From IMG/VR virus record IMGVR_UViG_3300037194_000008, positions 1 to 55,084 of that record: 55,084 nt of DNA; one strand, given 5' to 3'. A program made the position numbers and the translations under genes. This DNA is from a virus. Below the pieces are notes generated by a model. That model worked only from the letters and a program-made list of their open reading frames with translations. It did not search any database and was not told the DNA's origin. Shown here piece by piece: positions 428 through 25,345 of this stretch. The number at the start of each line of letters is the position of its first letter. Position 1 is the stretch's first letter.

Positions 428-2416
428 TCACGCAGGAACTTCGTCTTCGACAGAAGTCAGCACAGGTTGGGCGTTTGACACACCTAGTTTCTCGAGCAAC
501 GCCTGCTGGCCTTGCACGAGCAGGCTGATCTGCTCCTGCATCTGGCCGATCACCTGGTTGTTGGCTTCGAGTTCCTGCTCGTACTGCTCGGTGACCTGGT
601 TCATCCCTTCCTTGAGCTCAAGGATCTTCGCGTCCGCAGCCTTGGCACCCTCGACGTTGCCGCTCTTCCAGAGCTCACTGATGGCGACAGCGTCAGCTGC
701 GCCGGACAGTTCGAGCTGCTTCTGGATGATGTACTGCATGGCGAGAGCAGCGTTCCCGAGGATCTCCTGGTTCTGCGTGGCGGCCATGGCCGGCAGCGCC
801 TGGCTGAGCGGGACGAACAGCTGGTTCAGGACACGCAGCTGCTTCTCGTCCTCAAGCTCCACCAGTGAGCCGGGGATACACCGGACGTAGTACTCCTGTG
901 CCAGCTCCTTGAAGTCGAAGTTCAGGGTGCCGTCCTTGTCGAAGTCACCCGTGACGAGCTCGTTGCCCTCTTCGTCGACCATCACGGTGTACGGCTGGAG
1001 CCCGGCCTTGAGCAGCTTGATCCTGGCTTCGGCTGTCGGCATGACGCTCTTGATGGCAGCCAGCTCGTGGAAGTACATCGTCAGGGCGTACGAGCAGTAG
1101 TGGCTGAAGAAGCCCTCGACCGCCTTCTGGTAGTTGTTCGTGGTCGTGTCGACCAGCTGGTTCTGGGCCTCGACTCCTTGCGGCGTCGCGCTCATTCCAC
1201 CGTTGCCAGCCTGTGTCGCCATGAGCTGATCGCTCGCGCCGAACAGGCTGATCATGTTGCCCTGGTTCTGCTCGGTGATCGCACCGAACTGCATGAGCGA
1301 CTGGGTGTTGACCTCGAACGGTTCGATCTTCGCGTTCGGGTTCGGGATCTGGGTGTACTTGCCCGGGCTCAGGTTGGGGATGGAATTGACCGTGCCGTAG
1401 CCGATGATGCTCGGGTTGATGTTCCGGTACCAGAGCTTCATCGCGCCGTTGAGCATCAGATCCTGGAAGTCCTGGCGACCGATGAGCAGCTCGACCTGGC
1501 TCTTGCCGTACGGCTGGTTGTCGTCCTTCTCCATGACGAGGAAGAACACCGGGTGGTGCTTCAGCGGGTGCTTGTTCTTCTCGATGCGCAGCAGCATCAT
1601 CGTGTTCGCGTCGAACGTCAGGAAGTTCTCACCGGTCGAGGAGTACCAGGTGATGATCTCGTAGCCCTCGGGGATGGTGTGGTGCTTCGACGACTGCTTG
1701 TCGACGGACTGCATGTCCTTGGATCGGGGCTTCTCCATCTTCAACCGGCGCAGCGCGGCGTGGTCCCAGCCGGGTACCTCGTCGTAGCAGAGCTGCCGGA
1801 CTTCACCCTCGGTCAGGTAGCGACGCACGAAGATGTTCGTGGCCTCTCGGATGTCCTTGGCGCCTGGCTCCGGGAAGACGTCCCGATAGTGGATCGAGTC
1901 GTACTTCATGTACCAGGAGCCGGCGGCGTCCTGCACCAGCGCCGGGATCACACAGGCGAAGCCGAGCGTCAGCGCCGTCTTGGTCGACGCGAAGAGCGAC
2001 TGCTGCATGTCGTTGGAGTACTGGTCCGAGCCGATGATCTTGGAGGTCAGCACGTACTTGCTGAAGATCCCCTTGGGTGTGTCGTCGTCGAAGATGCTGA
2101 TGACCTCGACGTTGGGCGTGTTCTGCACGAGGGAGCGAGCCGTCCGCCGGACCAGGCCGGCCGTCTCTCCTGAGCTGACGTTCGGCAGGTCTGCCTTCGG
2201 GTGGATGACCTCGGCGTCGGCGAGCTTCTCCAGCACGTCGTAGCCCTGCAGGCGCTTGTCGGCTTCGGTCTTGTAGCGTCGCCAAAGACCGTGAAGGGCC
2301 TGCCCGACGGGAGCGATGTTCCGATACTCGAGAGCCCCATTGCGCTCGTCGATCTCGTAGCTCGTGTACCACTGAGTGAACTCGGTGATGGGCTTGTGCC
2401 CCGTGATCATTGCCAT
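428..2416 (-). CDS. Portal protein
   Basis: A 662-residue protein expected to form the dodecameric ring at the capsid vertex through which DNA enters and leaves and on which the short tail is built. Size, position between the giant virion gene and the capsid gene, and the long body with polar segments around residues 90-430 fit podoviral portals. The C-terminal ~90 residues are Gln/Glu-rich and predicted coiled coil, as in portal barrel regions. The ATG at 2416 overlaps the end of the giant gene by 10 bases, so translation is probably coupled. An 82-base gap with the capsid ribosome site follows its stop. Assignment rests on context and general resemblance, not on a catalytic motif. Confidence 0.75.
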   Translation of the reverse strand: MAMITGHKPITEFTQWYTSYEIDERNGALEYRNIAPVGQALHGLWRRYKTEADKRLQGYDVLEKLADAEVIHPKADLPNVSSGETAGLVRRTARSLVQNTPNVEVISIFDDDTPKGIFSKYVLTSKIIGSDQYSNDMQQSLFASTKTALTLGFACVIPALVQDAAGSWYMKYDSIHYRDVFPEPGAKDIREATNIFVRRYLTEGEVRQLCYDEVPGWDHAALRRLKMEKPRSKDMQSVDKQSSKHHTIPEGYEIITWYSSTGENFLTFDANTMMLLRIEKNKHPLKHHPVFFLVMEKDDNQPYGKSQVELLIGRQDFQDLMLNGAMKLWYRNINPSIIGYGTVNSIPNLSPGKYTQIPNPNAKIEPFEVNTQSLMQFGAITEQNQGNMISLFGASDQLMATQAGNGGMSATPQGVEAQNQLVDTTTNNYQKAVEGFFSHYCSYALTMYFHELAAIKSVMPTAEARIKLLKAGLQPYTVMVDEEGNELVTGDFDKDGTLNFDFKELAQEYYVRCIPGSLVELEDEKQLRVLNQLFVPLSQALPAMAATQNQEILGNAALAMQYIIQKQLELSGAADAVAISELWKSGNVEGAKAADAKILELKEGMNQVTEQYEQELEANNQVIGQMQEQISLLVQGQQALLEKLGVSNAQPVLTSVEDEVPA

Positions 2417-5400
2417 TGCTTGAGCCTTCCTCGCTCAGACGAGATTCTTTCACGCCGGATGCTGGCTCGGCGGATAATCGGGTTCGACGTGTTGATGAAT
2501 GGAATGCCGTCAGCAAACGTGGCTCGCTGGAACTGGAACCCATTGAACCTGATCGGGGAGATGTGCGGGCCGTAGCCACCTCGGCCACCTCCACCACCGC
2601 CACCGCTGTAGCCGCCGTAGCCACCACCGCCATAGCCATAGCCGCCACTGGCGAATCGCTCGCCATTGTCGCTGCCGAGGTCGAGCTCACCGATCGCATC
2701 GGCCACTCGTTCGGCAGCTGCGCGGATCTCTTCCTCGGGCAGCGGGAGCTCCCAGTTCTCGCCGCGGCGCTTGATTGCGCGCATGCCCGTGTTGATGCCG
2801 GCCGGGCCGTCGACGACGTTCATGCGCTCGTCGAGCTCGAGTCCGGTGTCGGCCTCCTGGTACGGACGGTTCAGCATCTTGATGCCAAGAGCGCCCATGA
2901 TCCCGTCACGGGTGAAGCCGGTGGCACGAGGCCAACCGTCCGGACCCATCATGTAGGTCGTGTTCAGCTGGGTGTACTCCAGCGTGTCGGAGAACGGGAT
3001 CTCCTTCGACCACACGAAGTCGTACAGGCCCTTCTGCTCCGGATCGTCGAGCGGCCCGAACCACAGCCGCTTCATGCGCGAGTTGGCCATCGACTTGGTC
3101 AGGCCCATCTCGATGCCCTCTTCGACGAGCTGCTTCATCCACTTCTCCTGCAGCGCCTCGCGCATCTCGAAGGTGAGGAAGTAGCCGTTGAGCGCAGCGT
3201 CGTCGAGCTGGATCTCACCCTTGGCCAGGGCAGAGATCGTGGCGCGTGCGCCCTCGTCGGTCGGAACCTCGCGGCCCTTGTCGTTGATGATCGACATGGC
3301 GCCCAGGCCCTGTGACTCCGCGTACTGCTTGGCCGCGGCCTCGACATCACGCAGGTTGTAGCGAACGCCGGCGTCCCGAGCCTGCTGCTTCAGGACGTTG
3401 ACCGCCTCCTCCTCGGTGAGCGAGGGGGCACCGCCGAGTCCGACGAACGAGGCGAGCAAGGTCTCCTCGATCTCAGCATCGGACTTGGGCGTGAGCTCGA
3501 ACTGCCGGATCTTCGGCACCATGTTCTGGCGGAACATGTCGGAGCCGGTGAATCCGCCACCCGACACAGCCGTGAACAGCGAGCCGATCAGGGCCAGGCC
3601 GAAGCGAGTCTCGGTCAGCGACCGCACCTGCGCGTCGGCAGGGTTGCGAGACACGTAGCCAACCTGCGTCTCGCCGTCCTCGCCCGTGAACTCCTTGAGG
3701 TTGTCGGTCGGCACGAGGTTGCCCTCGGCGTCAGTGGCCATCTCGCCACGGATGCCACTCGTCTTCGGCTGCACCCACGGGTTCCGGTCGTACTGGTCGG
3801 TGCCGACGTAGATCATGTTCACCATGGCGTTCTCCATCAGCATCCGGTCGAGGATGCCAACGGCGGTGGTGAGCAGGTGCGCTGAGGCAGCCATGGATTC
3901 GGGCGTGCCCTTCTCCGCCTCGGACACAGCCTGGTTGTGGAGCTCGGCCACGGTGTCACTCCAGGCTTCCCAGAGCTGGGCGTTCACCAGCGGGTGAGAG
4001 CCGATGGCGTCCTTGAAGCCGTGGTAGACCTCCATGAAGTTGCCGGTCTCGTAGAACCGCTCGAACCCGATGACCGGGCTGAGGAAGGTACGCAAGATCC
4101 AGTTCATCTGGCCGACCGCACGAGTGCCGCCTTCACCGTCCGGCACCTTGAAGTAGGAGTCCAGACCGAAGGGCAGCCAGTCGAGGAAGATGGCGTCTCG
4201 GTTGGCGAAGTCGTTCTGCAGCTTGCGCGGGTCGTGGACGAAGCCAGCTCCCTGGAGCTCAGCCGCGCGGCGCCGGTACTTCTCCTCCTCGTCCTCACCT
4301 GACAGGCCGAGTCCGCCGGCGATGAGGCCGAACTGGAACAGCATGGTGTGGGTGATGCCTCCCCGGATGAAGGAGTCCGCCAGGTCGAGGCCCTCGAGGA
4401 CCTCGCTCATGTCGTAGTACTCCTTGTTCTCCGGATCGTAGGGCTCACCGCGCAGCGCCGACTGCATGCGCTTGACGATCTTCTTCTCGCGTCCGTCGAA
4501 GAGCGCAGCCGCGAAGTCGGCCGGCCCCTGCATGCCGGTGATGCTGATCGAATAGTTGGCCCAGAAGTTCTGGAACGCGGCCAACATCTTCATCAGGTTG
4601 CCGGTGGCGTTCCACATCGGGCTGTCGTTCTCCGACAAGGGCTCGATCACACCGCGCACGGCCAGCGACAGGATCGACGGCTTCAGGTTGCGCGTCTGCG
4701 CAATCGAGGCAATCGCCATGTTGTGGGCCTCGCGGTCCTGCTGGTAGATCCACTCCGGGTTCCGCTGCATCTGGGCGATGAGCATGTCGATGGAGTAGAT
4801 GTTCTCACCGATGGGGTCGGCAGCGATCTTGCGCATCACCGTCTCCATGTAGATCCGCGCCAGGTCGCGCGGCATCATGCCCCAGGACGGGTCCTGCAGG
4901 CGGGCGCCCCACTTGGCGTAACGCTCCAGCCACTTCTCGATCTTGCCGATGCCCGGCATCGAGGGGTACTGGTACATCAGCTCCTTGTAGACCATGGCCC
5001 GGAACTCCGACCGCGAGCTGAGCGCGTTGACCAGATCGTTGACCTGCTTCAGCTGCTCAGTCGATTCGTACGTCAACGTGAAGCCGAGCTCGTTGGCGAT
5101 GGCCGCGATGCTCGTGTCTGAGAACCGCTCGGCCAGCTTCATCTGCGCCTGTCCGACACGGCCCGTCGACTCACCGACGGCCACGTTGGCGAACATGTTG
5201 AGCGTGCGCATGACGAACGCCTGGATCGGGGCGGAGATCACGAGCGCGGCGTTGAACATCGCGTTGCCGACTCGGAGGTTGAGCAAGCTGCGGAACAGCG
5301 CGGTGGTCTTGGTGCTGTGCCCGATGAAGGTCTGGCCCGGTGCACGGACGCCGCGCATCTGACGCTGGCCGGGAACCGGTGCGTCGCCCTCAGCTCGCCA

Positions 5401-8400
5401 GTTGGCCAGCTGACGATCCTGCCAGCCCTGTGCGCTGTTCGGATCGTTCTCACCGCGGATCGAGGAGTAGATCCTCGAGCCGATGACGATGTCCTCCAGC
5501 TGAGCCTTCGACGACCCGAACAGGTCGAGCTCGGTGGTCAGCAGGTTGACGTCTGCGCTGATCGAGATGAGCATGCGGTTGGTCTCAGGGTCCATCAGCA
5601 GGTTCTGCTTGAGCAGGTCCGAGGAGACCGGCAGCGCACGCAGGTTGCTCGTGGCTCCCTGGTATCCGTGCATCAGTCCGTCGACGGCCAGCAGGTAGAC
5701 CGGATCGAAACGCGGGTTGCGATCTTCACCCCAGGCCGTGCCGAACGCCGTCTCGATCCAGGCGTCCCAGCTCGCTGCCTTCGGATCAGCCGAGGCGTCG
5801 TTGGACTTCTCGGTGCGAGGAGCCCAGCCGCCGGAGCGGTGCGCGTTCGCCATGTAGATCGCCGACACATGGTTGTTGTCCATGAGCGGGATGCGTCCGC
5901 CGGCGGTCGGGTAGTCGTTGTTCCGAATGTTGATCCGGATCTCCTGCGCGATCTCCACAGCCCGAGCACCGCTGATGATGCCGAGCTCGCCGATCTTGTC
6001 GTCCATGCCCCAGGGCTTGCCCAGCATCATCCGGACCCAGGTGTCGAACATCTGGTTCTGGTTGCCGAACAGGTTGAGCTCACCCATGACCTGGCTCATG
6101 ATCGAGCGGTAGTCACGCTTCTGTTCCTTGGTCCAGCCCTTGCGGTTGAGGCGCTTGAACAGACCGGAGATCTCTTCGCGGGCGTACATCCGGCGAGCCG
6201 ACTCAGCCTGCGTCTCCTGCCGCCACCCGGTCTGGGATGCGTCCTTGGCCGGCAGCCTGGTCAGCATCTCCCAGGCGTTGGCTCCGTCGTCGCTGAACTT
6301 CTCGACGATGGTGCCGCGCTCGAAGCTCTTGGCGAAGGCGCGCGACTTGTCCAGCCGCTTGTGCACGGTGAGGGCGCCGGTGCTCATGGCCGCGGCCAGG
6401 GCGTTGTGCGCCGACACCGCGCCGGCCTCGTTGAAGTCGTAGGCCTGGCCGTCGAGCAGCGGGTTGTCACCCGAGGAGTGGGCCTCACCGAACTGGAGGT
6501 AGACGCGGATCGGGTCCGCGCCGCCCGGCTTGAAGACCTCGACCTGCCAGTTGTTGTGCAGGCGCATGCCCGAGCCATCGGGGTTCTTCTGCAGCTGGGC
6601 GTCGAACCGGCGGATCAGCTCGGTGTGCAGCGGGCCGTCAGCCGGACCGTCAAGCAGGTCAGCGAACAAGCCAGGAACCAAGCGAGTGGTGCCGTCCTCG
6701 TTGAGGGCGTTCGGTCCTGCGAAGCCTGCCGACCGCAGGATGTTCTCCGGGTTGGCTTGCGGCGTCAGGAGGTACGTGATGACAGCCCTGGCAATCTGGG
6801 CGTTGGCCGTGTCCGCCACCTGGAGGTTGCGAGCCCAGGCAGGCTTCGGTCCGCCGGCGGAAGCTTGAGCCGCGGCGAACTGGCCGAGCAGGTCACCGAT
6901 CTCGACGTTGGCCCGAGCGATCGAGCGCGCGGTCGAGTACGGGATGCGGACGTCGTCCTGGCGGGCCAGCTTGTGCAACAGGGTGTTGGTCACCGTGACC
7001 GCACCCGGCCACTCCTTGCTGCCCTTGCTGATGCCTGGGTAGAAGAACTCAACCATGTCGTCCAGGAAGTTGAACTCGAAGAAGGCCAGCGCGTTCCGGT
7101 AGTTGTTGATCCGACCGGAGAACGCCTCCTTGCTGTCAGCCGAGAGCACGTCCGAGATCAGGTCGACCATCGTGCCGTTCGAGAACACGTCCCAGGAGTA
7201 GTCCTGCAGCAGCTCCGGCATCGGCACGACGACGTACTTCATGCCGTTCCATTCGAGCTGGATCTTGTCGCCGTACTCCTGCAGCTCGGTGTGAATCTCC
7301 AGGCGCCGGCCGAAGCCCGCCTCGTTGCGCACGTCGTGGATGACACCGCTGTGGTCGGTCGACAGCGGCTCCGCCTTCGACTGGCCGAGCGCGATGTTCA
7401 TGCCGTTGTTCTCCGACAGGAGGTCAGGCAGGTCAGCGATCCGCGGGGCCTTGAGGCCGTGGCGGTACAGGATGATCCGACCGTCACTGTGCACGAACGG
7501 GATGATGTCGCCGCGCTCGATCACGTCGCCGGTCTCCGGCCGCAGCGAGTTGCGACGAGAGATCTTGGAGTGGAAGTCATTGAGCGACTGCTCGATGGAC
7601 TTGACGCGGGGCAGGTCCGGACCGGCCATCTTCAGCAGCGCGGCCCGAGCTTCAGCATTGGCAGGGTCCAGCATCGACAGCAGGTGCGCGTGGGCTCGAG
7701 CGTGCAGCCCGTCTCGCCGCCCGTCGTCGAGCAGGATGTCGAAGCCGTTGTACATCCGGGACGGCAGGATGTCGGTGACGGCCTTGCGGTCCCGGAGCTT
7801 GACCGAGTTCGCGTTGCGGATCGCAGCGTTCTCGTCGGTGCCGATGGGGTCGATGGCCAGCGCGGTCACGATGTTCTTCACCGGAGAGATGCGCTGCGTC
7901 TCAAGGAACGTCGACTCGTAGGCCCGCTCGTTCTGCGTCAGGCCGGAGGTCTCGCTCGGCACGTAGACATGCTTGCTGCCCTTGAGCGCGATGTAGCCGC
8001 GAGCCAACAGGTAGCGCGCCGACTCCGCCCGGAGATCCGCGGCACCGTTGTTGGACCCGAGGATGATCGTGGCGCCGGAGTCGATGAGGTAGCGCAGCGA
8101 CTTCTCGACCCGCTCCTGCACCGCATCGGGATCGCGCTCCGGCTTCTGGAAGGTGTCGAGCTGGACCAGCGCGACATCGTCCTTGACCACGTTGTCGTAC
8201 TTGGCACGCTTGCCACCGGACAGCGCCTCGACGGTGATCATGCCGCCGGCGAAGTTGCTGGCCGCCTCGTCGACGACCTGCCAACCGCGGCGGTAGTCGT
8301 TGCCTGGCGTGACCGTCTGATGCAGCGCCTGGAGGATGCGCTGGGTGTGGCGCACCGCCTCCATGTTGCGAGGAGCGATGACGCCGGGGATGGCGCCGAA

Positions 8401-11400
8401 GCTGACGTCGAGACGCTCTGCGTCGACTGCCACACCTGCCAGGTCGAGGACCCGGGCGTAGCTCTGACGGAAGTCGTCACGGTGCCGAGCCTCGACACGG
8501 GCCGAGTGCACGCGAGCTCGCTGCTCCTCCAGCACACGGATGCGCTCGTCACGAGCTGACCGCTCCTTGTCGGTCATCGCCGTGCCGATGCCCAGCACCC
8601 GCTGATGGCCGACGTGGCTGAGCGGGGTGTTCTGGATACGACCAGGCTGAGAGAACCAGCCGTCGCCGAACATCCCGAGCATCGTGTCGGTGATGCCGGT
8701 GAAAGCGGGCACGAGGTCCGGGTTGATGAGCAACTCGTCCTGGAAGAACCGCTGCACGCCCTGGTTGCCGGTGTCACCGAGCATCGAGCGCAGCACGTCC
8801 ATGCTCAGCGTCCGGAGCTCGACGTTCTCGACCGGCACGAACTCGCCGTTGCGTTCGACCGACAGCGGGTCGTCCGGATGCTCGAGCTGGAAGGCGATGA
8901 CCTCTTCGGCGGTGAAAGCCACGCGCTCACCGTTGACGGTGCCGACCACGATGTGCTGGAGCTTCAGCATCTTGTAGATCGCGTTGTAGGCCGCCGGGTC
9001 GATGCCGCCGTTGCCCTGGTCCGTGGTCATCCACAGCTCAGTCTTGATGCGCAGCATCTTGGCGAAGTCCCGCTCGGTGATCCACGCCGCATGCGCCTCG
9101 GCCAGCCGCACCGGGTTCGGGTGCTTGAACCGGGACTTGGCCGGCTTGCCCGACTTGCCTGCGTCGAGCAGCGCCTGCGTGCCCTCGGCGACCAGGCCAC
9201 CGTTGTCCATCCAGATGGAGGCGATCAGCGACTCCGCCGTGTCCGGCAGGAGATCGTGGTTCATCCCCTCGAAGTAGACGTTGTGGTACCAACCCTCACC
9301 CTCAGGCTGAGAGTCGGGGTGCAGGAAGTCGAGCTCGATCTGCAGCGACTCGACCGGCACACCCAACCGAGCTGCCCGACGTTCCACTGCAGCTCGCAGT
9401 CGGGACACGGTGATGTAGGCAAGGTCGACGTTGGGACCGGACTCGAGCTCGAAGCCGAGGTTGCCGACATAGAGCGGCACCTCCTCACCGTTGATGCGGA
9501 GCTTGTGGACGAAGCGGTTGTTCAGCTGAGCCACCGGCATTGGCCGCGGCGTGGGCGAGCCGGCCGGCGTGACGATGATGTCGTTGAACTGGCTGGCGTC
9601 TTCCTTGATGTCAGCCCACGACAGGGTGGCCGTGGTTAGCAGCTGATCCAGGCCCTCGGTCTTGAACGTGCGTCGGGTGGCGAACGCCGGGATGGCCCAA
9701 CGCTTCGGTCCGTTGCCGTTGGCAGCGATGCCACCCGGCGCCGCCGAGGAGTCCATGCGCTCCTGAGTGGCAACGAGCTGAGACATCAGGCCTGGCGTCC
9801 AGGACCCGTACTGCTCAGGCCGCAGCAGCGTCGTGTTCAGCACACGCACAGCGTCGTCGAGCACCACCGGCGGAGAAGGCTGCCGAGCCATGCCGTGCAT
9901 CCACACCGCGGCTTCGGCCAGCGGGCTGGTGTCGGACAGCAGGTCCTCGGCGAGGTAGCTGAACGACGTGTCCAGGTACTTGAAGAACTGGTGGCTGCTC
10001 TCGAGCGGGTCACCCTTCGGGAACGGAGGCGTCGAGATGTGGCTGGCCACGCCAATGGCCTTGTCCGCCAACTGCACGCCCATGGCCCCGCGGCTGAGCA
10101 CGTCCCACTGCTCGGGCTTGAGGTCGATCCGGCCAGCCTTGCGCTGCTGCTGGAGCACAGCCCATGCGTCAGCCGCTTCAGGTGCACGGGTCGGGAAGCT
10201 CGTCATCGAGCTGACGTACTCGATGATGTTCGCCCGGGCCGCAGCGTCAACCTGCTCGTCGCCGGTCAGGTGGAACCGCTGCACCAGCTGGAGTGCCTGG
10301 TTGTTGTCGAGCATGCCCTGGATCAGTTCGGCGTTCAGCGCGTACTGCTCGTCGAGCGCCTCGATCCGGCGGTCGAGCTCGTCACCGGAGTAGAGCGAGG
10401 AGTAGCCGTCGATGATCGTGGCCTGCTCTGCAGCCAGCTGCGCGAGCAGACCCTGAATCCACTCCTGCACCACGGCCTTGTCGAGACCCCGGAACTCCGG
10501 CAGCTTGCGGTCGAGGGTGAACCGCTGCATCTGCTCGACCGCGTAGTCCTTGAGCTGGCTGAGCAACCCGGCACTCCGGGTGTCCACGTTGGACTGGACC
10601 TCACCGACCAGCCGCATGATCTTGGCGACCGCACGGTAGGCCTGCGCCGACAGCCGCTTGCTGTCTTCGATGGTGGCCGGGTGATCCAGCGCACTGGTCA
10701 TCGTGATGGCCAGGTCGTTGGCCAGGCGCATGGCTGAGAACGAGCCGCCTGCCTGGTTGGCACGAGCGTCCAGCGCCATCAGGTAGTTCATGTCCCTCGA
10801 CAGCGACATCTCGTCGGCGTCGTCGTACTGGTAGAACCGCTCGTACTCGGTGTTGTCCAGCAGCGTTGACAGGCTCGACTCGAACATGAGCCGCTCTTGC
10901 AGCTTGCCGGCAGCCGTCACGTCCATGGCCTTCGGCGTCATCAGCGCGAGGGCCAGCGGCTTCGACTCCCAGTCGTCGAGCATGTCCAGCATCTCGAGCA
11001 GCGAGGAATCCTGGTTCGGGTCGAAGCCCTCCCACTCGATCGGCCGGCCATAGGCGTCCATGGACTGGCCCGAGGTACGGATCAGGTTCCCGATGTCGGT
11101 GCTGAGCGAGCTCAGGCTGTGGGAGGTCAGCGACTCCTGGAGCTGCTCGAAGTTGGGCAGGAAGCCGAAGGCGTCCATCAGCATCTGCAGTTCGCCGTAC
11201 GCCTCGTACGACGTCGGGGTCTGGCCCTTGTCGGTCGAGTGGGCGTCGAAGCCGGTGACCACACCCCGTGTCAGGGCGAGCATCGCGCGAGGGCTGAAGC
11301 CGCGCGGGATGTTGATGGCCATGCTCATGGCCCGGCGGAACTTCCGCAGGTCCTCCAGGTCCTCCGAGGTCGGCGGGTCGTCCGGGTTGTTGAGCAGGGC

Positions 11401-14400
11401 GCGACGGATGTTGGTGGAGCGCACCGAGTCGGTGGCATCGGACTCAGCCTGGAACTTCATCGAGTCGCGCAGGTACTCCGCCGACTGGCGCAGCATGGCC
11501 AGGCTCTCGCGCAGATCTGCGTCGGCACGGGCCGTGACCCAGCCGCCGGCCACGTCCGCCTCGAAGGCGGAGACGTCGTCGTTGAACGGGACCAGTGGAG
11601 CGCGGTTGCCCTGCTCGCCGATGATCCGGTTGTTGCGCACACCGGGTGCGCTGTTGAGCCAGACGAAGAACTCGTCGAGGTTCTTGATCGAGTCCATCTG
11701 GCGGACCACGAGCTCGAGCGTGCGCTGGCCGGGCTCCTGGCTGAGCTCGAACAGCAGTCTCTGGAAGCGGGACTGCAGTCGGTCGTACACCCGACCCGGG
11801 GTTCCGCCGCCGTCGTCCTCACGGACGTTGACCTGGGTGGCGTTCCACTTGGCCAGCGTCAGGTTCTTCCAGTAGTACATGAGCGCCTCGTCGGCGTTCT
11901 CGATCTCGAACATGTCGTAGAGCCAGTTGCTCACGTAGAGCTGGCCGTCGCGGTACTCGAACAGCGCGTTGGCCGCGGCATCCGGGATCGCCTCAAGCAG
12001 CTGCCGCCCGACCAGCGGGTTGTTCTGCAGCATCTCCTGGGCCAGGTCGGCGTTGGACCGGCGACCGCGCTTGCGGTTGCTGATGGTGCGGAAGCTCTCC
12101 ATCGCCTCACGCAGGAGGGTGAACGCCTCCTTGAAGTCACCCTGTGCACGCTGGCTCGGCTTCACCAGATCACCAGAGAGCGCGTCGGCCGGGTCCTTGG
12201 CGTCGGGGTTGAACACGATGGAGGCGTTGCCGACTGCCAGCAGCGCGTCCATCATCGAGCGGTAGGCCGTCACCTCCTGGCGTCCCACCTCCGACAGGGA
12301 GTACGGCAGGTTGGTCGTCTCCTTGCGATCCAGGTAGGCGGGGTGGTTCGTGTAGAACCGCTTCATCTCTCGCCGGCCCTCGTCGTCCTGGGCGATGTAC
12401 GCCTGCAGCCACTGCTCGGGTGTGACGTGCGGACTCAGGTTGCCCAGGTTCAGGCCGACCGACTCCGCGAACGGAGCGGCCTTGAAGATCTCGATGAACG
12501 CGCGCTCGGCGTTGACGTCTCCGGGAAGCGTCATCGGGATGAGGCGGTTGTGTCGCGCCTGCATCGTCATGTCGTTGGCGAAGACCCGGGCCGCTTCGGT
12601 CCGCTCCGCCTCCAGCGCCCGCTTCAGCAGGAGCTGGGCCAGGCTGATCGTCTGGCCGTCCGTCTGCGGGGTGCCGTCAGCGCCCCACCACACGTCCTTG
12701 ACCTTGACGTTGGCCAGCACGCTCATCGCCGTGGACCCGTCGATCTTGCGACGGATGTCCGGGTCCTTCATCGCGTCCTTGGCCAGTCGCTCCAGCATCG
12801 TCAGTGCACGGGCAGCGATCGAGTCGTTGGCCGTGACCCGCTGCAGCTCGGACTGGGTGACGCCGCGGCTGAGCTCCGCGTAGAACTCGGCCATGTCGTA
12901 CAGGTCGACGAGCTCGGTCCCGTCGGCACTGAGCACGCTGCTGTTGAAGAACGTGTAGTGGATCGACTGGAACTTGCGGAACAGGCTGTTGCCCGGCACG
13001 AAGAGCGCCAGGGTCTGGGCCTCGGTGCTCGCAGCGGTCTTGAGGATCTGGGTACCGCGCGGGGTCTCCTCGCCGGAGACCTCGGTCTCGGTCGGACCGC
13101 CCGCAGCCAGTGGCGTGCGCAGCCGCCAGAAGGAACGCTGGAACTCCTGGAAGTTGTAGCGCACCACCTTGCTGATCCAGAGCCACTCGTTCGTCAGCTG
13201 ATCCCGGCCGAGCCGGTCGATCTGCTCGCCAGCGGTCTTGGCCAGCGCGTTGATCAGCTCGACACGGGCCTCTTCCTTGCCAGCCCGGACGCTCGTCTCG
13301 AACTGCCGGAAGATGGAGTTGAGCTGGGCCGGGCTCATGAACTGGCCGTACCGACCGATCAGGGCCAGCCGGATCTCGCGCAGCGCGCCGGCGGCCTCCA
13401 GCTCCAGCCAGGCGTTGCCGCCGTTCAGGCTGTCGCCGAGCGCCTCGGTCAGCGCCTTGTCGAAGTTGCGGGTGGCGATGTCGATGTTCTGGCCGACACC
13501 ACCGAAGTTGCTCCCGGCCCGGGACGTGGAGAACTGCTGGTCGTTCAGGATCAGCTGGTTCTCGGCCCGCAGCTTGTCACCATCGAAGTCGCCGTTGATG
13601 GACTGCAGGTAGTCCATGTTGACCTTGAGGAAGTTGTCGCTCCGGGTCCGGGTCAGCTCCCAGTCCGCCTGCGGCAGCAGGGAGTGGTAGGAGCCGGCAT
13701 CGAGCTTGGGCTCGCGGCTGTGCAGCAGGGAGACGAACTTGGCCGCGGCCATCTTCGCGTCGGCTGCACGCAGGCCGAGCTCGTTGAGTTGCTGCCCGTC
13801 GAAGTGGAAGCTCCGATCGAACATCTGCTCCAGGGTCACGTTGAACTCAGTCAGCCGCGCCTGGGCATCCTGTGCCGTGGTGGCCGGGTCGTAGATGAAG
13901 GCGACGTGCTCAGCCAGGAAGTCGAGCAGGCCCGGGGTCTGAGTCTCCTCGTTGCCGTTGATGACCAGGTTCACCATCTTGATCTGCGTCAGCAGCTCCT
14001 GGGTGTTGGCCAGCTCGCGTGCCACGTCCAGGTTCGACTGGTCCTGGTCCTGCAACTCAGCCTCGCGCCGGGTGAGGTACTGCTCTTGCAGGCCGATGCC
14101 CTTGGCCCGGTCCTCCAGGAGCTGGAGCACCTTGAGTGCCGAGCCCTCGACAGCCTCGGCACGCCCGACATCCTTCTGGTCGATGATGCCGCTGATCACC
14201 GTGTAGGAGTCGGTGCGCTCGGTGGCCTTGCGCAGTTCCTTCTCCACGATCCCGCGCCGGGCGTCCAGCGCCTTGGCCGCATCCGGCTCACTGGCGATCC
14301 GCTCAGCCGCCTGATCGCTGGCGATCCGCTTCAGCGCACCACGGGTGGTGTCGATGTCGGTCTTGTTCATCGCCGAGCGGCTGCGCTTCTCCGTCTCGGT

Positions 14401-16209
14401 CAGCCCATCCCAATCCGCCTTGGACAGGTGGGTGCCGTACCTGGCGAAGTGCATGATCTGGGCTCGGCTGTAGAGCCGCTCATCCTGAGTCGGTGCACCA
14501 CGGGTGGCGCCGGCGGTCATGCCGACACCACTGGCCGCGCCGAGCAGGAAGGAGTTGGCGACCTCGCTGAAGCTGAGCTCACCGTCCATCGAGATGGGCT
14601 CGAGGAGGGACTGCACCGCTTCCTCGTAACCTTCGCCGAAGCCGTTGAGCACCGCGGCCTTGAGCCGCTTGTCACCGGAGGCCATCCTCATGGCGGCCTG
14701 GTAGAAGTCGTCCGTCGTGACGGCCCGACCCTCCTTCAGCGCGTTGACCCGGGCTGCTCGTGTGGCACTGGCCCAAGCCACCTGCTCACTCGGAGCCAGG
14801 ATGGCCATCGTCTTCTTGGCCTTGCCCTCGACTGCCCGGCCCAGGTCGTCCACCACGAACCGATGGCCCGCAGCTTCGGCGATCTGCTCGCCCTCGTCCA
14901 GCGCAGTCCGGTTGGCCCGGGTGGCACGCGCGATGCCCGACAGCCCGCCGAGCTGCACCGCATCCACGCCGATGTTCAGGATGCCGGCCGCACCGGACAC
15001 GGGATCGAACTTGCCCTCGTCGTCCAGGAACAGGGGATCGTACGTTCCGCTTCTCGGGTTGAACGCCTCGCCGCCATTGGTCAGCAGCTCACCGACGTCA
15101 CCGCCGATGCTCAACCCCATCTCGGTGGCGTAGAGCGCCCGAGCCCGTCCGGACCCGAACTGCAGGACGCCGTCGATGACCGCCGCACCCAGGTTCAGGC
15201 CCTGCCAGAACGCACCGGGCTTGGCAGTGCCGTCCTTGTTGAGCTCGTAGAACTCAGCGGTGTCGTCCCCGATGTCACCTTCCTTGGCGTCGTACGCACC
15301 CTTGGCCAGGTTCTGGAACGGGGACCCAGCCTGCATGGCCAGCTTCCCGGCCTGCCCGATGCCGGTGAACGTCGCGCTGAGCTTGTTGTTCTCTTCGGCG
15401 TTCTGCTTGGTGATCTCGACAGCACGCGCGGCCTTGTTCTCCAGATCGTCCTGGTTCACCAGGAAGCCGACGCCACCGGCCACCGCACCGATGGCCGTAC
15501 CCCACGGCCCGAACCCGGAGCCCATCAGGGCACCCGATCCAGCCGCGGCAACTGTGCCGACTACCTCGGACCAGAGCCCCTCGTCCAGAGAGTCCTGCGT
15601 CTTCTCCACATCCTGCGCGAAGTCCTTCGCCGTCAGGGCCTTGGGGATCTCGACGTTGTTCTCATCGCGCCGGCTGGCCACCGCGTTCTTGATGGCAGTC
15701 TGCCGGTCGCTGTCCTGGAAGAGCCTGCCCTGCTCCTTGCCGTCGAACAGCAGCGGGACCATGCGCAGGTCCGCGGTCTCCCGGTCGTACAGGTCATAGA
15801 CGTTGCCGACCTTGGTGCCGTTGTCGTAGATGTCACCGAACTTGAAGGTGTTGCCGTTGCTACCTTCGTGATCCCAGGTGACGACACCTGTCGCCTTGTC
15901 GCTCTCGAAGTACGTGTTGAGAGTGCCGTCCTTCGCCGCCTTGTTCTGGCCGGCAATGAACCGCTCCATGAAGTCGGTGTCCCAGCCGTTGTTCACGCCC
16001 TCGGAATTCGCACCCGTGAACCATCGTGCCGCCGTCCCGACGTATCCCCCGCCATCGCGGGCGGGCTCGTTGGCCCATCGTCCGAGTGTGCTCTGTGATT
16101 CGGCTGGCTGAGCGGGATCGTATCGACCGCCTGCTTCAGCTACTTGCCGCTGCCCTTCGGGGGCAGATACATCCTTGGCCTGATCGCCCCAACGCTGGAG
16201 AGCTCCCAC
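2407..16209 (-). CDS. Giant 4,600-residue protein, candidate virion-packaged RNA polymerase / polyvalent protein
   Basis: A single uninterrupted 13.8 kb frame, a quarter of the genome and first gene of the leftward arm. It starts at GTG 16209 with AAAGGTG seven bases upstream. Visible parts in order: a Gly/Ala-rich hydrophobic stretch at about 212-252, possibly membrane active; an R832-E-P834 motif followed 40 residues later by NGDFDGDK (872-879), resembling the RxP and metal-binding NADFDGD of RNA polymerase beta-prime; a Rossmann-like glycine motif near 2715-2740 (ILGSNNGAAD); GDK at 2980-2982, K2991 and NGTMVDLI at 3011-3018, resembling GDK...NK...NGTPVDIV of beta; long helical regions from about 3650 as in large polyvalent phage proteins; and a Gly/Tyr-rich tail near 4520-4550. 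Being upstream of portal and capsid suggests it is packaged and injected. The polymerase role is inference from motifs; a calcium-binding DxDGD loop is the main alternative. Confidence 0.55.
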   Translation of the reverse strand: MGALQRWGDQAKDVSAPEGQRQVAEAGGRYDPAQPAESQSTLGRWANEPARDGGGYVGTAARWFTGANSEGVNNGWDTDFMERFIAGQNKAAKDGTLNTYFESDKATGVVTWDHEGSNGNTFKFGDIYDNGTKVGNVYDLYDRETADLRMVPLLFDGKEQGRLFQDSDRQTAIKNAVASRRDENNVEIPKALTAKDFAQDVEKTQDSLDEGLWSEVVGTVAAAGSGALMGSGFGPWGTAIGAVAGGVGFLVNQDDLENKAARAVEITKQNAEENNKLSATFTGIGQAGKLAMQAGSPFQNLAKGAYDAKEGDIGDDTAEFYELNKDGTAKPGAFWQGLNLGAAVIDGVLQFGSGRARALYATEMGLSIGGDVGELLTNGGEAFNPRSGTYDPLFLDDEGKFDPVSGAAGILNIGVDAVQLGGLSGIARATRANRTALDEGEQIAEAAGHRFVVDDLGRAVEGKAKKTMAILAPSEQVAWASATRAARVNALKEGRAVTTDDFYQAAMRMASGDKRLKAAVLNGFGEGYEEAVQSLLEPISMDGELSFSEVANSFLLGAASGVGMTAGATRGAPTQDERLYSRAQIMHFARYGTHLSKADWDGLTETEKRSRSAMNKTDIDTTRGALKRIASDQAAERIASEPDAAKALDARRGIVEKELRKATERTDSYTVISGIIDQKDVGRAEAVEGSALKVLQLLEDRAKGIGLQEQYLTRREAELQDQDQSNLDVARELANTQELLTQIKMVNLVINGNEETQTPGLLDFLAEHVAFIYDPATTAQDAQARLTEFNVTLEQMFDRSFHFDGQQLNELGLRAADAKMAAAKFVSLLHSREPKLDAGSYHSLLPQADWELTRTRSDNFLKVNMDYLQSINGDFDGDKLRAENQLILNDQQFSTSRAGSNFGGVGQNIDIATRNFDKALTEALGDSLNGGNAWLELEAAGALREIRLALIGRYGQFMSPAQLNSIFRQFETSVRAGKEEARVELINALAKTAGEQIDRLGRDQLTNEWLWISKVVRYNFQEFQRSFWRLRTPLAAGGPTETEVSGEETPRGTQILKTAASTEAQTLALFVPGNSLFRKFQSIHYTFFNSSVLSADGTELVDLYDMAEFYAELSRGVTQSELQRVTANDSIAARALTMLERLAKDAMKDPDIRRKIDGSTAMSVLANVKVKDVWWGADGTPQTDGQTISLAQLLLKRALEAERTEAARVFANDMTMQARHNRLIPMTLPGDVNAERAFIEIFKAAPFAESVGLNLGNLSPHVTPEQWLQAYIAQDDEGRREMKRFYTNHPAYLDRKETTNLPYSLSEVGRQEVTAYRSMMDALLAVGNASIVFNPDAKDPADALSGDLVKPSQRAQGDFKEAFTLLREAMESFRTISNRKRGRRSNADLAQEMLQNNPLVGRQLLEAIPDAAANALFEYRDGQLYVSNWLYDMFEIENADEALMYYWKNLTLAKWNATQVNVREDDGGGTPGRVYDRLQSRFQRLLFELSQEPGQRTLELVVRQMDSIKNLDEFFVWLNSAPGVRNNRIIGEQGNRAPLVPFNDDVSAFEADVAGGWVTARADADLRESLAMLRQSAEYLRDSMKFQAESDATDSVRSTNIRRALLNNPDDPPTSEDLEDLRKFRRAMSMAINIPRGFSPRAMLALTRGVVTGFDAHSTDKGQTPTSYEAYGELQMLMDAFGFLPNFEQLQESLTSHSLSSLSTDIGNLIRTSGQSMDAYGRPIEWEGFDPNQDSSLLEMLDMLDDWESKPLALALMTPKAMDVTAAGKLQERLMFESSLSTLLDNTEYERFYQYDDADEMSLSRDMNYLMALDARANQAGGSFSAMRLANDLAITMTSALDHPATIEDSKRLSAQAYRAVAKIMRLVGEVQSNVDTRSAGLLSQLKDYAVEQMQRFTLDRKLPEFRGLDKAVVQEWIQGLLAQLAAEQATIIDGYSSLYSGDELDRRIEALDEQYALNAELIQGMLDNNQALQLVQRFHLTGDEQVDAAARANIIEYVSSMTSFPTRAPEAADAWAVLQQQRKAGRIDLKPEQWDVLSRGAMGVQLADKAIGVASHISTPPFPKGDPLESSHQFFKYLDTSFSYLAEDLLSDTSPLAEAAVWMHGMARQPSPPVVLDDAVRVLNTTLLRPEQYGSWTPGLMSQLVATQERMDSSAAPGGIAANGNGPKRWAIPAFATRRTFKTEGLDQLLTTATLSWADIKEDASQFNDIIVTPAGSPTPRPMPVAQLNNRFVHKLRINGEEVPLYVGNLGFELESGPNVDLAYITVSRLRAAVERRAARLGVPVESLQIELDFLHPDSQPEGEGWYHNVYFEGMNHDLLPDTAESLIASIWMDNGGLVAEGTQALLDAGKSGKPAKSRFKHPNPVRLAEAHAAWITERDFAKMLRIKTELWMTTDQGNGGIDPAAYNAIYKMLKLQHIVVGTVNGERVAFTAEEVIAFQLEHPDDPLSVERNGEFVPVENVELRTLSMDVLRSMLGDTGNQGVQRFFQDELLINPDLVPAFTGITDTMLGMFGDGWFSQPGRIQNTPLSHVGHQRVLGIGTAMTDKERSARDERIRVLEEQRARVHSARVEARHRDDFRQSYARVLDLAGVAVDAERLDVSFGAIPGVIAPRNMEAVRHTQRILQALHQTVTPGNDYRRGWQVVDEAASNFAGGMITVEALSGGKRAKYDNVVKDDVALVQLDTFQKPERDPDAVQERVEKSLRYLIDSGATIILGSNNGAADLRAESARYLLARGYIALKGSKHVYVPSETSGLTQNERAYESTFLETQRISPVKNIVTALAIDPIGTDENAAIRNANSVKLRDRKAVTDILPSRMYNGFDILLDDGRRDGLHARAHAHLLSMLDPANAEARAALLKMAGPDLPRVKSIEQSLNDFHSKISRRNSLRPETGDVIERGDIIPFVHSDGRIILYRHGLKAPRIADLPDLLSENNGMNIALGQSKAEPLSTDHSGVIHDVRNEAGFGRRLEIHTELQEYGDKIQLEWNGMKYVVVPMPELLQDYSWDVFSNGTMVDLISDVLSADSKEAFSGRINNYRNALAFFEFNFLDDMVEFFYPGISKGSKEWPGAVTVTNTLLHKLARQDDVRIPYSTARSIARANVEIGDLLGQFAAAQASAGGPKPAWARNLQVADTANAQIARAVITYLLTPQANPENILRSAGFAGPNALNEDGTTRLVPGLFADLLDGPADGPLHTELIRRFDAQLQKNPDGSGMRLHNNWQVEVFKPGGADPIRVYLQFGEAHSSGDNPLLDGQAYDFNEAGAVSAHNALAAAMSTGALTVHKRLDKSRAFAKSFERGTIVEKFSDDGANAWEMLTRLPAKDASQTGWRQETQAESARRMYAREEISGLFKRLNRKGWTKEQKRDYRSIMSQVMGELNLFGNQNQMFDTWVRMMLGKPWGMDDKIGELGIISGARAVEIAQEIRINIRNNDYPTAGGRIPLMDNNHVSAIYMANAHRSGGWAPRTEKSNDASADPKAASWDAWIETAFGTAWGEDRNPRFDPVYLLAVDGLMHGYQGATSNLRALPVSSDLLKQNLLMDPETNRMLISISADVNLLTTELDLFGSSKAQLEDIVIGSRIYSSIRGENDPNSAQGWQDRQLANWRAEGDAPVPGQRQMRGVRAPGQTFIGHSTKTTALFRSLLNLRVGNAMFNAALVISAPIQAFVMRTLNMFANVAVGESTGRVGQAQMKLAERFSDTSIAAIANELGFTLTYESTEQLKQVNDLVNALSSRSEFRAMVYKELMYQYPSMPGIGKIEKWLERYAKWGARLQDPSWGMMPRDLARIYMETVMRKIAADPIGENIYSIDMLIAQMQRNPEWIYQQDREAHNMAIASIAQTRNLKPSILSLAVRGVIEPLSENDSPMWNATGNLMKMLAAFQNFWANYSISITGMQGPADFAAALFDGREKKIVKRMQSALRGEPYDPENKEYYDMSEVLEGLDLADSFIRGGITHTMLFQFGLIAGGLGLSGEDEEEKYRRRAAELQGAGFVHDPRKLQNDFANRDAIFLDWLPFGLDSYFKVPDGEGGTRAVGQMNWILRTFLSPVIGFERFYETGNFMEVYHGFKDAIGSHPLVNAQLWEAWSDTVAELHNQAVSEAEKGTPESMAASAHLLTTAVGILDRMLMENAMVNMIYVGTDQYDRNPWVQPKTSGIRGEMATDAEGNLVPTDNLKEFTGEDGETQVGYVSRNPADAQVRSLTETRFGLALIGSLFTAVSGGGFTGSDMFRQNMVPKIRQFELTPKSDAEIEETLLASFVGLGGAPSLTEEEAVNVLKQQARDAGVRYNLRDVEAAAKQYAESQGLGAMSIINDKGREVPTDEGARATISALAKGEIQLDDAALNGYFLTFEMREALQEKWMKQLVEEGIEMGLTKSMANSRMKRLWFGPLDDPEQKGLYDFVWSKEIPFSDTLEYTQLNTTYMMGPDGWPRATGFTRDGIMGALGIKMLNRPYQEADTGLELDERMNVVDGPAGINTGMRAIKRRGENWELPLPEEEIRAAAERVADAIGELDLGSDNGERFASGGYGYGGGGYGGYSGGGGGGGRGGYGPHISPIRFNGFQFQRATFADGIPFINTSNPIIRRASIRRERISSERGRLKQWQ

Positions 16210-16300: not shown

Positions 16301-16420
16301 CGCGTGGAAACTTTTGCCGCGAGTCGTGTCAGCTGAAAAACTTCCCGGCAGATCGGCTCCGAGCTGAGAACTTTCCCGGAGATCGCTTCGGTTGTGGAAA
16401 GTGCGGAAATCTTTGCGTGA
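16301..16420. repeat. Imperfect 30-bp phased repeats in the giant-gene leader
   Basis: AACTT(T)CCCGG-type cores recur at exactly 30-base spacing: AACTT at 16309, 16339 and 16369, with a weaker GGAAAGTGCGG copy near 16396. The second and third units also share AGCTGA before and AGATCG after the core. They lie 90-200 bases upstream of the giant gene start and about 160 bases from the rightward arm. Phased repeats in a divergent control region suggest binding sites for a regulator or for a polymerase. Confidence 0.5.
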
Positions 16421-16430
16421 GGTTCCAATA

Positions 16431-16584
16431 GATACAACATAAACAAACAACACATTAGATACCCCCTATACATGTATATGTATGGATATTGGTATCTGGA
16501 TGATTACTAAGTTGAATCACCAGAGTTGGTTGTTTCTATTGTGGCAATTTTTGGAATAACTAACTACTAACCTAGGAGTAGTCC
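16431..16584. promoter_or_regulatory. AT-rich divergent control region with a dyad
   Basis: This stretch is markedly AT-rich in a GC-rich genome. It contains the perfect palindrome TATACATGTATA (16467-16478) enclosed by the inverted pair AGATACC (16457-16463) and GGTATCT (16491-16497). A possible sigma-70-like TTGAAT lies at about 16513 with TCTATT 17 bases later, but this is weak. Position between the two arms makes it the likely promoter and operator for the rightward genes; it may also serve as a DNA-unwinding element. Confidence 0.5.
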
Positions 16585-16963: not shown

Positions 16964-17041
16964 TACGGTGTGTGGACTGTTGTTTGAGCTGATGATTGGA
17001 ACTCTCACAATCGTGGCTCTCGCCACTAATTTCGCCGATGC

Positions 17042-17235
17042 AGTCACCCTCAAGGTGACTACACATTCTTCCCATCGTTCCAGTCTTTTTCCCTGGTGTA
17101 GTCATGCAGTCACCCTAAAGTCGGTAACCCCTGTGAACTCACACTCTTTTTACAAGGTGACTGCTGACTACATTCCTAATTTCCCCTGCAATTGCAGAGG
17201 GAAACCGCAGTCACCCAGGGGGTGACTGCATGACT
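17042..17235. repeat. Duplicated non-coding element, copy A
   Basis: The left part is a hairpin AGTCACC-CTCAA-GGTGACT (17042-17060). The main part is bounded by a perfect 16-base inverted repeat, AGTCATGCAGTCACCC (17100-17115) and GGGTGACTGCATGACT (17220-17235), with internal GGTGACTGC and GCAGTCACCC copies making two further stems, and the palindrome CTGCAATTGCAG near 17187. A second copy lies at 39699-39904 in the same orientation, roughly 80% identical by eye over the bounded part. The translatable frame across it looks fortuitous. Candidate roles are replication origin, partition or regulator site, or promoter. Confidence 0.75.
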
Positions 17236-17239
17236 GCAT

Positions 17240-17560
17240 CTAGACACGAGCTCCCACTCGTGCTAGTCGATGCTCCTCGTTGTATATGGAGACAGCTTGA
17301 ACTCTCTGATCAGGGCGACGGCTGATGCCGTCTCTCGTCCGCTGACGACGCGCACATGCTTGTGCGCTCACACTGCTGTGTGCTCCAAAGAAGAAGGCTA
17401 TTTGGAGAAGGGAAAGGGGGAAAGAGAAAGAGAGCAAAGCTCTCAAGGTAAGTAGCTATCTCATCTAGAACTTCAGCAGTTGCAGCGCCTCACACGCTCC
17501 TGCTCACCACCACCGGTTGCGCACCTCTATCGAGTGCTGCGGTCTGCCGGTGGTCAATCT
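17240..17560 (+). other. Serial short perfect hairpins, non-coding
   Basis: No convincing gene here. In order: CACGAG/CTCGTG (17245-17262), GACGGC/GCCGTC with TGAT loop (17317-17332), GCGCACA/TGTGCGC with TGCT loop (17350-17367), CACAC/GTGTG with TGCT loop (17369-17382), GAGAGC/GCTCTC with AAA loop (17430-17444), and ACCACCGG/CCGGTGGT (17509-17554) with an inner GCAC/GTGC. A purine-rich stretch precedes the fifth. The density suggests a structured non-coding RNA or a set of hairpin promoters. Short-frame translations of the region lack good ribosome sites. Confidence 0.55.
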
Positions 17561-24427: not shown

Positions 24428-24473
24428 GTGGTGGTGCCGGTGTCCTGTGGGGAAGCAGGCCCGGCACCATCAC
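24428..24473 (+). terminator. Intercistronic hairpin followed by an A/T tract
   Basis: GTGGTGGTGCCGG (24428-24440) pairs with CCGGCACCATCAC (24461-24473), one G-U pair, with a secondary CCTG/CAGG stem in the loop. Twenty-two bases later is the palindrome GGAAAAAATTTTCC (24496-24509). The gap to the next gene also holds its ribosome site (GAGGAGG). Confidence 0.6.
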
Positions 24474-24554
24474 CCCCAATCCAATTGGTGAACCAGGAAA
24501 AAATTTTCCGCACTCACCAGTACCTCACAACCATCGAGATGAAGAGGAGGAAGC

Positions 24555-25226
24555 ATGGCTTCCAACCCGAAGAACGTGACCATCTACGGACGCTTGTCGT
24601 TCCCGGTGTTCACGGCGAAAGAGGCGTACGACAAGAGCCAAGGCTCCCAGTACCCGGCCAAGGAGATCTCCGAGGCGAAGCCCAACTTCATGCTGCTCGT
24701 CGAGCAGCCGCAGTTGGACAAGCTGCAGGCGCACATCCTCAACGAGTTCTTCCCGTACTGCCTTCAGCAGTCGAAGGACGGCGAGAAGAGCGACGTGCTG
24801 TCGGCGACGGAGATCAAGGACCTGACCAAGCAGGTCAAGGGTCCCGACTACGACGGTGTGTACAACACGCCGTTGAAGAACGTGCACGAGAAGTCAGCTG
24901 CGCTGGCTCCCGAGTGCGTCGCCGCGGTCAAGGTGCTCGGCACTGCCGGCACGGACATCGAGCTCAAAGCCATCGTCAATGGCGAGGACGAGCTCGTGGT
25001 TCCCGACCCGGATCTCCTGTCGTGGCCGGTCATCAAGCCGATCAGCGCAACGGTGCACTCGATGTACCCCGGCGCACTGGTCGCGGTGACCCTCAACCTG
25101 TACGCCTACCACAACGGCAAGTTGCCCGGCTTCAGCGCCGGCGCCAACGTCGCTGTGTTCAAGGCGAACGCAGATCGGTTCGGCGGTGGCGTTGCCATCG
25201 ACGAGTCGGAGATCTTCCTGGACTAG
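24555..25226 (+). CDS. Single-stranded DNA-binding protein (DUF2815-like)
   Basis: A 223-residue protein with AAGAGGAGGAAGC upstream. It has OB-fold-like strands, an N-terminal NVTIYGRLSFPVF segment, and near the C-terminus YPGALVAVTLNLYAYHN...GF...NADRFGGG, close to the pattern of the DUF2815 family of phage ssDNA-binding proteins. Gene order supports this: DUF2815-like protein, DUF2800/Cas4-like nuclease, then DNA polymerase A is a recurring phage replication arrangement. It should coat single strands at the replication fork. Assignment is by family resemblance and context. Confidence 0.65.
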   Translation: MASNPKNVTIYGRLSFPVFTAKEAYDKSQGSQYPAKEISEAKPNFMLLVEQPQLDKLQAHILNEFFPYCLQQSKDGEKSDVLSATEIKDLTKQVKGPDYDGVYNTPLKNVHEKSAALAPECVAAVKVLGTAGTDIELKAIVNGEDELVVPDPDLLSWPVIKPISATVHSMYPGALVAVTLNLYAYHNGKLPGFSAGANVAVFKANADRFGGGVAIDESEIFLD

Positions 25227-25236
25227 GCCAGGTAGG

Positions 25237-25304
25237 GCGAGTGGGCAAGGTGCCGGCGCGGGCTGCAACACCCGCCGAGTCAGGTTCGAATCCTGACCAC
25301 TCAC
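25237..25304 (+). tRNA. Atypical tRNA-like sequence, possibly tRNA-Cys (GCA)
   Basis: The T-arm is canonical: TCAGG-TTCGAAT-CCTGA (25280-25296). The anticodon stem GCGGG/CCCGC (25258-25262, 25271-25275) is perfect but its loop CTGCAACA has eight bases. The D-arm is reduced to GGCA-AGG-TGCC (25244-25254). The acceptor GCGAGTG (25237-25243) pairs with CACTCAC (25298-25304) with one mismatch. There is no encoded CCA. It fills the only non-coding gap between the ssDNA-binding and nuclease genes. It may be a degenerate tRNA, a tRNA mimic or a noncanonical functional tRNA. Confidence 0.45.
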
Positions 25305-25345
25305 GCAGCAGGGCAACAAGGCCCGACGCACAGAAGGGAGAGCGC

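Follow-up and report, generated by a model that had tools for sequence, protein, structure and literature searches.

The window analysed here is a 55,084-base stretch of viral DNA in which one open reading frame, at 2407-16209 on the minus strand and starting with GTG, encodes a giant virion protein of 4600 residues (about 507 kDa), proposed below to be a virion RNA polymerase (RNAP) and ejection protein. Its end is overlapped by the portal protein gene (428-2416, minus strand; Pfam SU10_portal, E=6e-4, and synteny with annotated portal genes). Homologues of the giant protein include Burro gp27, Akoni gp31 and Araxxi gp27. The gene was described by Jacobs-Sera et al. as being among the largest viral genes and of unclear role (PMC7302621); later genome announcements again list it as of 'unknown function' (PMC8281081, PMC13069448), and records of related phages annotate it as hypothetical or as 'tape measure'. 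A band of ~250 kDa in Burro virions has been assigned to gp27 (PMC7302621), for which the calculated mass is 488 kDa.

A tblastn search with the motif region discussed below returned 33 phage records, every one of them from a Microbacterium phage (Burrovirus, clusters EK1/EK2) or from Arthrobacter phage MissAmericana. The relatives, viruses of soil actinobacteria, are podoviruses whose tails measure about 10-14 nm (PMC8281081, PMC13069448); they share a common gene order: the giant gene, portal, capsid and tail genes lie on one strand and the replication genes run divergently on the other. A profile of the C-terminal part of the giant protein matched 38 loci. About 20 uncultured IMG/VR contigs (L019 and within L068-L099), many of them roughly 40-56 kb, carry very divergent giant genes. 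The giant gene family is suggested to be large and to extend past the named genera. (Scans for further relatives with the single protein returned the query alone, and no plasmid relatives were found.) Pfam searches with ten proteins of the window identified a family A DNA polymerase and no other polymerase or sigma factor. Adjoining the DNA polymerase gene, a 544-residue protein (24428-26062) matches DUF2800 (E=4e-23); proteins in the same position in relatives are annotated as Cas4-family or RecB-like exonucleases.

In the intergenic gap between the divergent gene blocks lies an AT-rich, conserved, single-copy DNA element (16385-16502, core 16431-16474, plus strand) with the sequence AACTTT..GGAA.ATATAC..AAACAAACAACACAT..ATACCCCCTATA.ATATATATG. 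One strong copy is found, at constant position, in every related genome for which the region is available, even the very divergent contig L019, and the element is strongly conserved while the proteins are only 20-35% identical. It is a candidate viral promoter, though an origin or some other regulatory function is just as plausible. A non-coding gap at 17038-17250 contains repeated and inverted GCAGTCACCC...GGGTGACTGC sequences that are reminiscent of hairpin sites.

A Pfam search with the whole giant protein gave no match, and PF00623 had no match in the window. Near the N-terminus, a Gly/Ala-rich segment (residues 200-275; 15385-15612, minus strand) is a possible membrane or ejection segment; residues 221-266 weakly match a PHROG internal virion protein (E=0.013). 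Hydropathy identifies three candidate transmembrane stretches in the Burro protein and none above threshold in the protein of the window. At residues about 500-565 (14515-14712) a conserved helix, N[GA][FM]GE[GA].EE..Q...EP, is followed by a Gly-rich GxxMGxGMG, invariant across homologues that include the N-terminal part. The C-terminal part at residues 3985-4440 (2890-4257, minus strand), with YDPRDIxNDFRN and QLNTTYVMGPDGxPWATG, is the best conserved of the whole giant protein and matches no recognised family. The C-terminus itself (window 2410-2620) is a low-complexity Gly/Tyr-rich tail (GGYGYGGGGYGGYSGGGGGGG) with an Arg-rich end.

The segment that points to a function is a β′-type catalytic region (the DPBB-A part; residues 790-910; 13480-13842, minus strand), defined by its resemblance to the largest subunits of RNAPs in profile searches and HHalign. 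An earlier note on this DNA had picked out NGDFDGDK at residues 872-879 and an R-x-P at 832-834, and both are read in the 4,600-residue open reading frame, the second with the letters REP. Conservation of D874, D876 and D878 in homologues had been set beforehand as a test of that proposal: these aspartates of the DFDGD (residues 874-878; 13576-13590, minus strand; D874 codon 13588-13590), which are assigned as metal-binding, never vary in 31 of 31 sequences. R832-x-P834 (13708-13716, minus strand; R832 codon 13714-13716), also invariant, belongs to an RxP...S element that aligns with RNPT..GS of the PhiKZ and AR9 β′ subunits; the codon of its serine, S840, is 13690-13692. The '..SYHSLL' segment to which the same note had drawn attention matches a conserved GS[FY]xxLxPQ of the homologues, and the N872 of its 'NxDFDGD' is not conserved. 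The arginine and the first aspartate lie 42 residues apart; the corresponding distance is 35 in E. coli rpoC, 38 in P23-45 gp96 and 39 in an AR9-like β′.

The 31 homologues in the alignment of this stretch are about 18-41% identical to the protein of the window, and its invariant columns number nine only: R832, P834, S840, D874, D876, G877, D878, R897 and G899. DxDGD is retained in every homologue that covers it, among seven phage proteins and then among the IMG/VR homologues. Its second residue varies freely (F, Y, W, N or H), as would be expected if the metal ligands alone matter, and it is followed by K, T or R in most homologues. Composition alone leads one to expect 0.13 DxDGD in a protein of this size, and the motif by itself therefore proves nothing; what raises it above chance is its conservation and its context in the alignment.

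The context is that of RNAP. A PDB search with the 31-sequence profile gave 11 matches, of which nine are largest subunits of RNAPs, matched over the catalytic site, among them PhiKZ gp55 (the best, E=4.3e-4), AR9 β′ (0.013), three Pol I largest subunits, a cyanobacterial γ and vaccinia rpo147; the remaining two are short effectors with DFDGDQ. When the 31 members were compared singly with 38,880 PHROGs, 18 of them matched phrog_2987 (best E 1.6e-6) and 17 matched phrog_2986 (best E 1.1e-3), both named 'RNA polymerase beta subunit'; any other PHROG family was matched by one or two members. HHalign against a jumbo-phage β′ profile gives a probability of 95.6 and P=1.3e-8 across RxP...S...DxDGD, and with DxDGD masked the register is unchanged at P=2e-4. 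The observed score is 57.7, whereas 200 shuffles of the columns other than DxDGD scored no higher than 28.6. (One outlier of 147 in an earlier shuffle run was not seen again when 200 shuffles were parsed with more care, and is treated as a parsing error.) A weaker likeness to PhiKZ and AR9 β′ reaches upstream to a conserved Asn. Because a motif alignment extended into its helical flanks had matched designed helical repeats, shorter and deeper alignments were used.

These comparisons bear directly on the possibility that DxDGD is a chance occurrence or a calcium-binding, EF-hand- or dockerin-like mimic in a protein that is not a polymerase. The expectation of 0.13 for the bare motif and the presence in the PDB list of short effectors with the same letters speak for chance or mimicry. 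Against it, the likeness spans RxP, S and the intervening stretch and is significant with DxDGD masked, Pfam finds no EF-hand or dockerin, and DxDGD occurs once in the protein of the window instead of being repeated. Moreover, the residue after the third aspartate is almost never the Gly of the EF-hand DxDxDG loop (the divergent homologue L083 being the exception). With R-x-P and S conserved as a unit with the motif, the calcium-loop possibility that the earlier note had kept in view is rejected, and we regard mimicry or chance as very improbable. The β′-like catalytic centre that was first proposed is thus, by statistically supported sequence similarity to RNAP largest subunits, homologous to RNAP and not a mimic. 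Structure prediction is uninformative on this point: an AlphaFold model of residues 330-1400, built on a shallow alignment of 16 sequences, is mostly helical and of low confidence (mean pLDDT 62, pTM 0.35, 35-60 around the motif); it displays no double-psi barrel, and Foldseek gives no match; the model neither supports nor refutes such a fold. No bridge helix or trigger loop, for which sequence offers no reliable signature, was identified.

A two-barrel polymerase also requires a β-type barrel, which normally contributes two lysines (GDK...K in β). No β-type candidate appeared upstream of the DxDGD motif, where it is placed in the described single-chain enzymes. The candidate (DPBB-B) is instead found about 2,100 residues downstream, at residues 2890-3035 (7105-7542, minus strand), where the whole-protein alignment contains G[D/N/A]K......GMK. 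The lysine pair of this sequence, K2982 and K2991 (GDKIQLEWNGMK; 7237-7266, minus strand), candidate equivalents of the β GDK...K, and a third lysine, K3027 (7129-7131, minus strand), are the sole invariant residues of a 311-residue stretch in the 31 homologues. The spacing from K2982 to K2991 is 9 for 27 of the sequences, while three others have 8 and a single one has 7; it is 8 in E. coli β. An AlphaFold model of one homologue (L062) has an overall pLDDT of 82, with 90-97 over much of model residues 40-170 and lower values, about 62-74, in the lysine stretch, where short strands begin at each of the two lysines. In a Foldseek comparison of this model with 350,542 PDB chains, Streptomyces RNAP β ranks first (E 0.15) and RNAP β or Rpb2 chains account for 20 of the 50 top matches, each of them weak and none of any kind below 1e-3 (chains were identified by the description of each entry and the usual lettering of its chains). 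No RNAP β or Rpb2 is among the Foldseek matches listed for the low-confidence model of residues 330-1400. Residues about 2890-3035 are a good candidate for, and most likely form, the β-type half, the fold being suggested by the model.

The principal competing interpretation is that the giant protein holds the β′ half alone: residues 2890-3035 would be an unrelated β domain, and the β-type barrel would lie elsewhere, in an unrecognised stretch or in another phage protein. Sequence-library searches with residues 2890-3035 do not recognise RNAP β, and HHalign to E. coli rpoB aligns GDK with GDK at P=0.09. (A second HHalign pairing, of rpoB 770-980 with residues about 2785-3026 at P=7e-4, was discarded because it puts the lysines out of register.) Barrel order also favors a lone β′ half, since single-chain enzymes such as P23-45 gp96 have the β barrel ahead of the β′ barrel (PMC10770324). 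What argues against a lone β′ half is that invariance in the candidate region is limited to lysines with a β-like spacing, that the Foldseek matches are enriched for β/Rpb2, and that tiled HHalign searches over the whole giant protein yielded no other β-type barrel candidate. We consider a lone β′ half less likely than not, though a serious contender.

A further alternative is that the protein descends from a virion RNAP and now serves as an ejection or structural protein only, its polymerase inactive. Its large size, the mostly helical predicted regions, the Gly/Ala-rich N-terminal segment and the weak internal-virion-protein match would all suit such a protein. Inactivity would not be expected to preserve the catalytic Asp, R and lysines, which are among the few residues kept over very large divergence; this counts against an inactive polymerase, and we hold it to be unlikely.

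Among characterized enzymes, the significant alignment of the R-x-P...S...DxDGD region is with PhiKZ gp55 and AR9 β′ (PHROG 2986/2987). Each of these is a polypeptide of its own within a multisubunit enzyme, whereas here the motif lies inside one 4,600-residue polypeptide, and outside about 90 residues the likeness is undetectable. P23-45 gp96 (PMC10770324) is likewise a giant virion protein, its DFDGD lying near residue 780-880 and preceding a long tail-like region, and the logic of an injected virion RNAP is common to gp96 and the reading proposed for the giant protein. However, gp96 serves a long-tailed phage as its tape measure and has its barrels in the order B-A within about 800 residues, whereas the giant protein belongs to a short-tailed phage and its candidate order is A-B, about 2,100 residues apart; a gp96-type fusion to a long-tail tape measure does not apply to relatives that are short-tailed podoviruses (PMC8281081, PMC13069448). 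The two proteins have no overall sequence similarity, HHalign giving P=0.04 overall and a local match at the motif only. A resemblance between gp96 'SPSE' and a conserved 'APSE' at about residue 473 was dropped, since the gp96 stretch appears inside a connector reported as disordered (613-679). YonO and the crAss-like gp66 of phi14:2 (likened here by description only) are single-chain two-barrel RNAPs with DxDGD; YonO and the EK-cluster homologues have the form DNDGDK in common, and tiled HHalign detects no likeness of YonO to the giant protein outside the motif. The earlier note had named crAss-like phages only as carriers of packaged multisubunit-type RNAPs; P23-45 gp96 is a case outside them (PMC10770324).

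N4 gp50 of the Schitoviridae (PMC12633501) is also a giant ejected podovirus virion protein that combines membrane or ejection parts with a polymerase. Comparable size, podovirus morphology and virion location might suggest that the giant protein is likewise an N4 gp50-like, T7-type virion RNAP. The T7-type fold of gp50 has unrelated catalytic motifs, similarity to N4 vRNAP or its motifs is reported absent in the giant family (PMC7302621), and every polymerase matched in the present searches is of the two-barrel kind, with no search supporting the T7 type; the probability of a T7-type enzyme is negligible.

We return to the reading that we favor, with a probability of roughly three in four: the giant protein is a packaged, DNA-dependent RNAP of the cellular, two-barrel type, of predicted activity, fused to ejection or structural regions and ejected with the DNA. 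A virion-borne RNAP in an actinophage had been anticipated from the motif; homology to RNAP and the virion association of the Burro homologue (PMC7302621) support this, and polymerase activity is a prediction. Residues about 790-910, homologous in sequence, would constitute the β′-type half of the active site, with R832xP834 and S840 positioning substrate and D874, D876 and D878 binding the catalytic Mg2+; the invariant K2982 and K2991 would most likely be the substrate- or RNA-contacting lysines of the β-type half. The protein would be packaged in the capsid, as its virion-associated and probably proteolytically processed Burro homologue indicates (PMC7302621). If P23-45 gp96 and N4 gp50 are a guide (PMC10770324, PMC12633501), it would belong to the ejection apparatus and accompany the DNA out through the short tail. 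On the same model it would, after refolding within or next to the membrane, transcribe the first viral genes ahead of any need for the host polymerase, perhaps from the conserved AT-rich element in the gap that separates the divergent gene blocks. The ~250 kDa form of the 488 kDa Burro product would fit a mid-protein cleavage, which could leave one barrel in each product.

Taken together, and more tentatively, at somewhat less than even odds, the protein may represent a new class of virion RNAP in which the order is reversed, the β′-type barrel preceding the β-type barrel by about 2,100 residues within a single polypeptide. Mid-protein processing could then generate two one-barrel chains, in effect a phage re-invention of separate β′ and β subunits, packaged in actinobacterial podoviruses.

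The analysis provides a testable function for one of the largest actinobacteriophage proteins, 'unknown' or 'tape measure' in the records and papers examined, and on the reading favored here it adds short-tailed phages that infect Gram-positive actinobacteria to the carriers of packaged cellular-type RNAPs. Should the order of the barrels indeed be reversed, the halves of the universal active site of transcription could be joined either way round, which would bear on the origin of the two-barrel polymerases.
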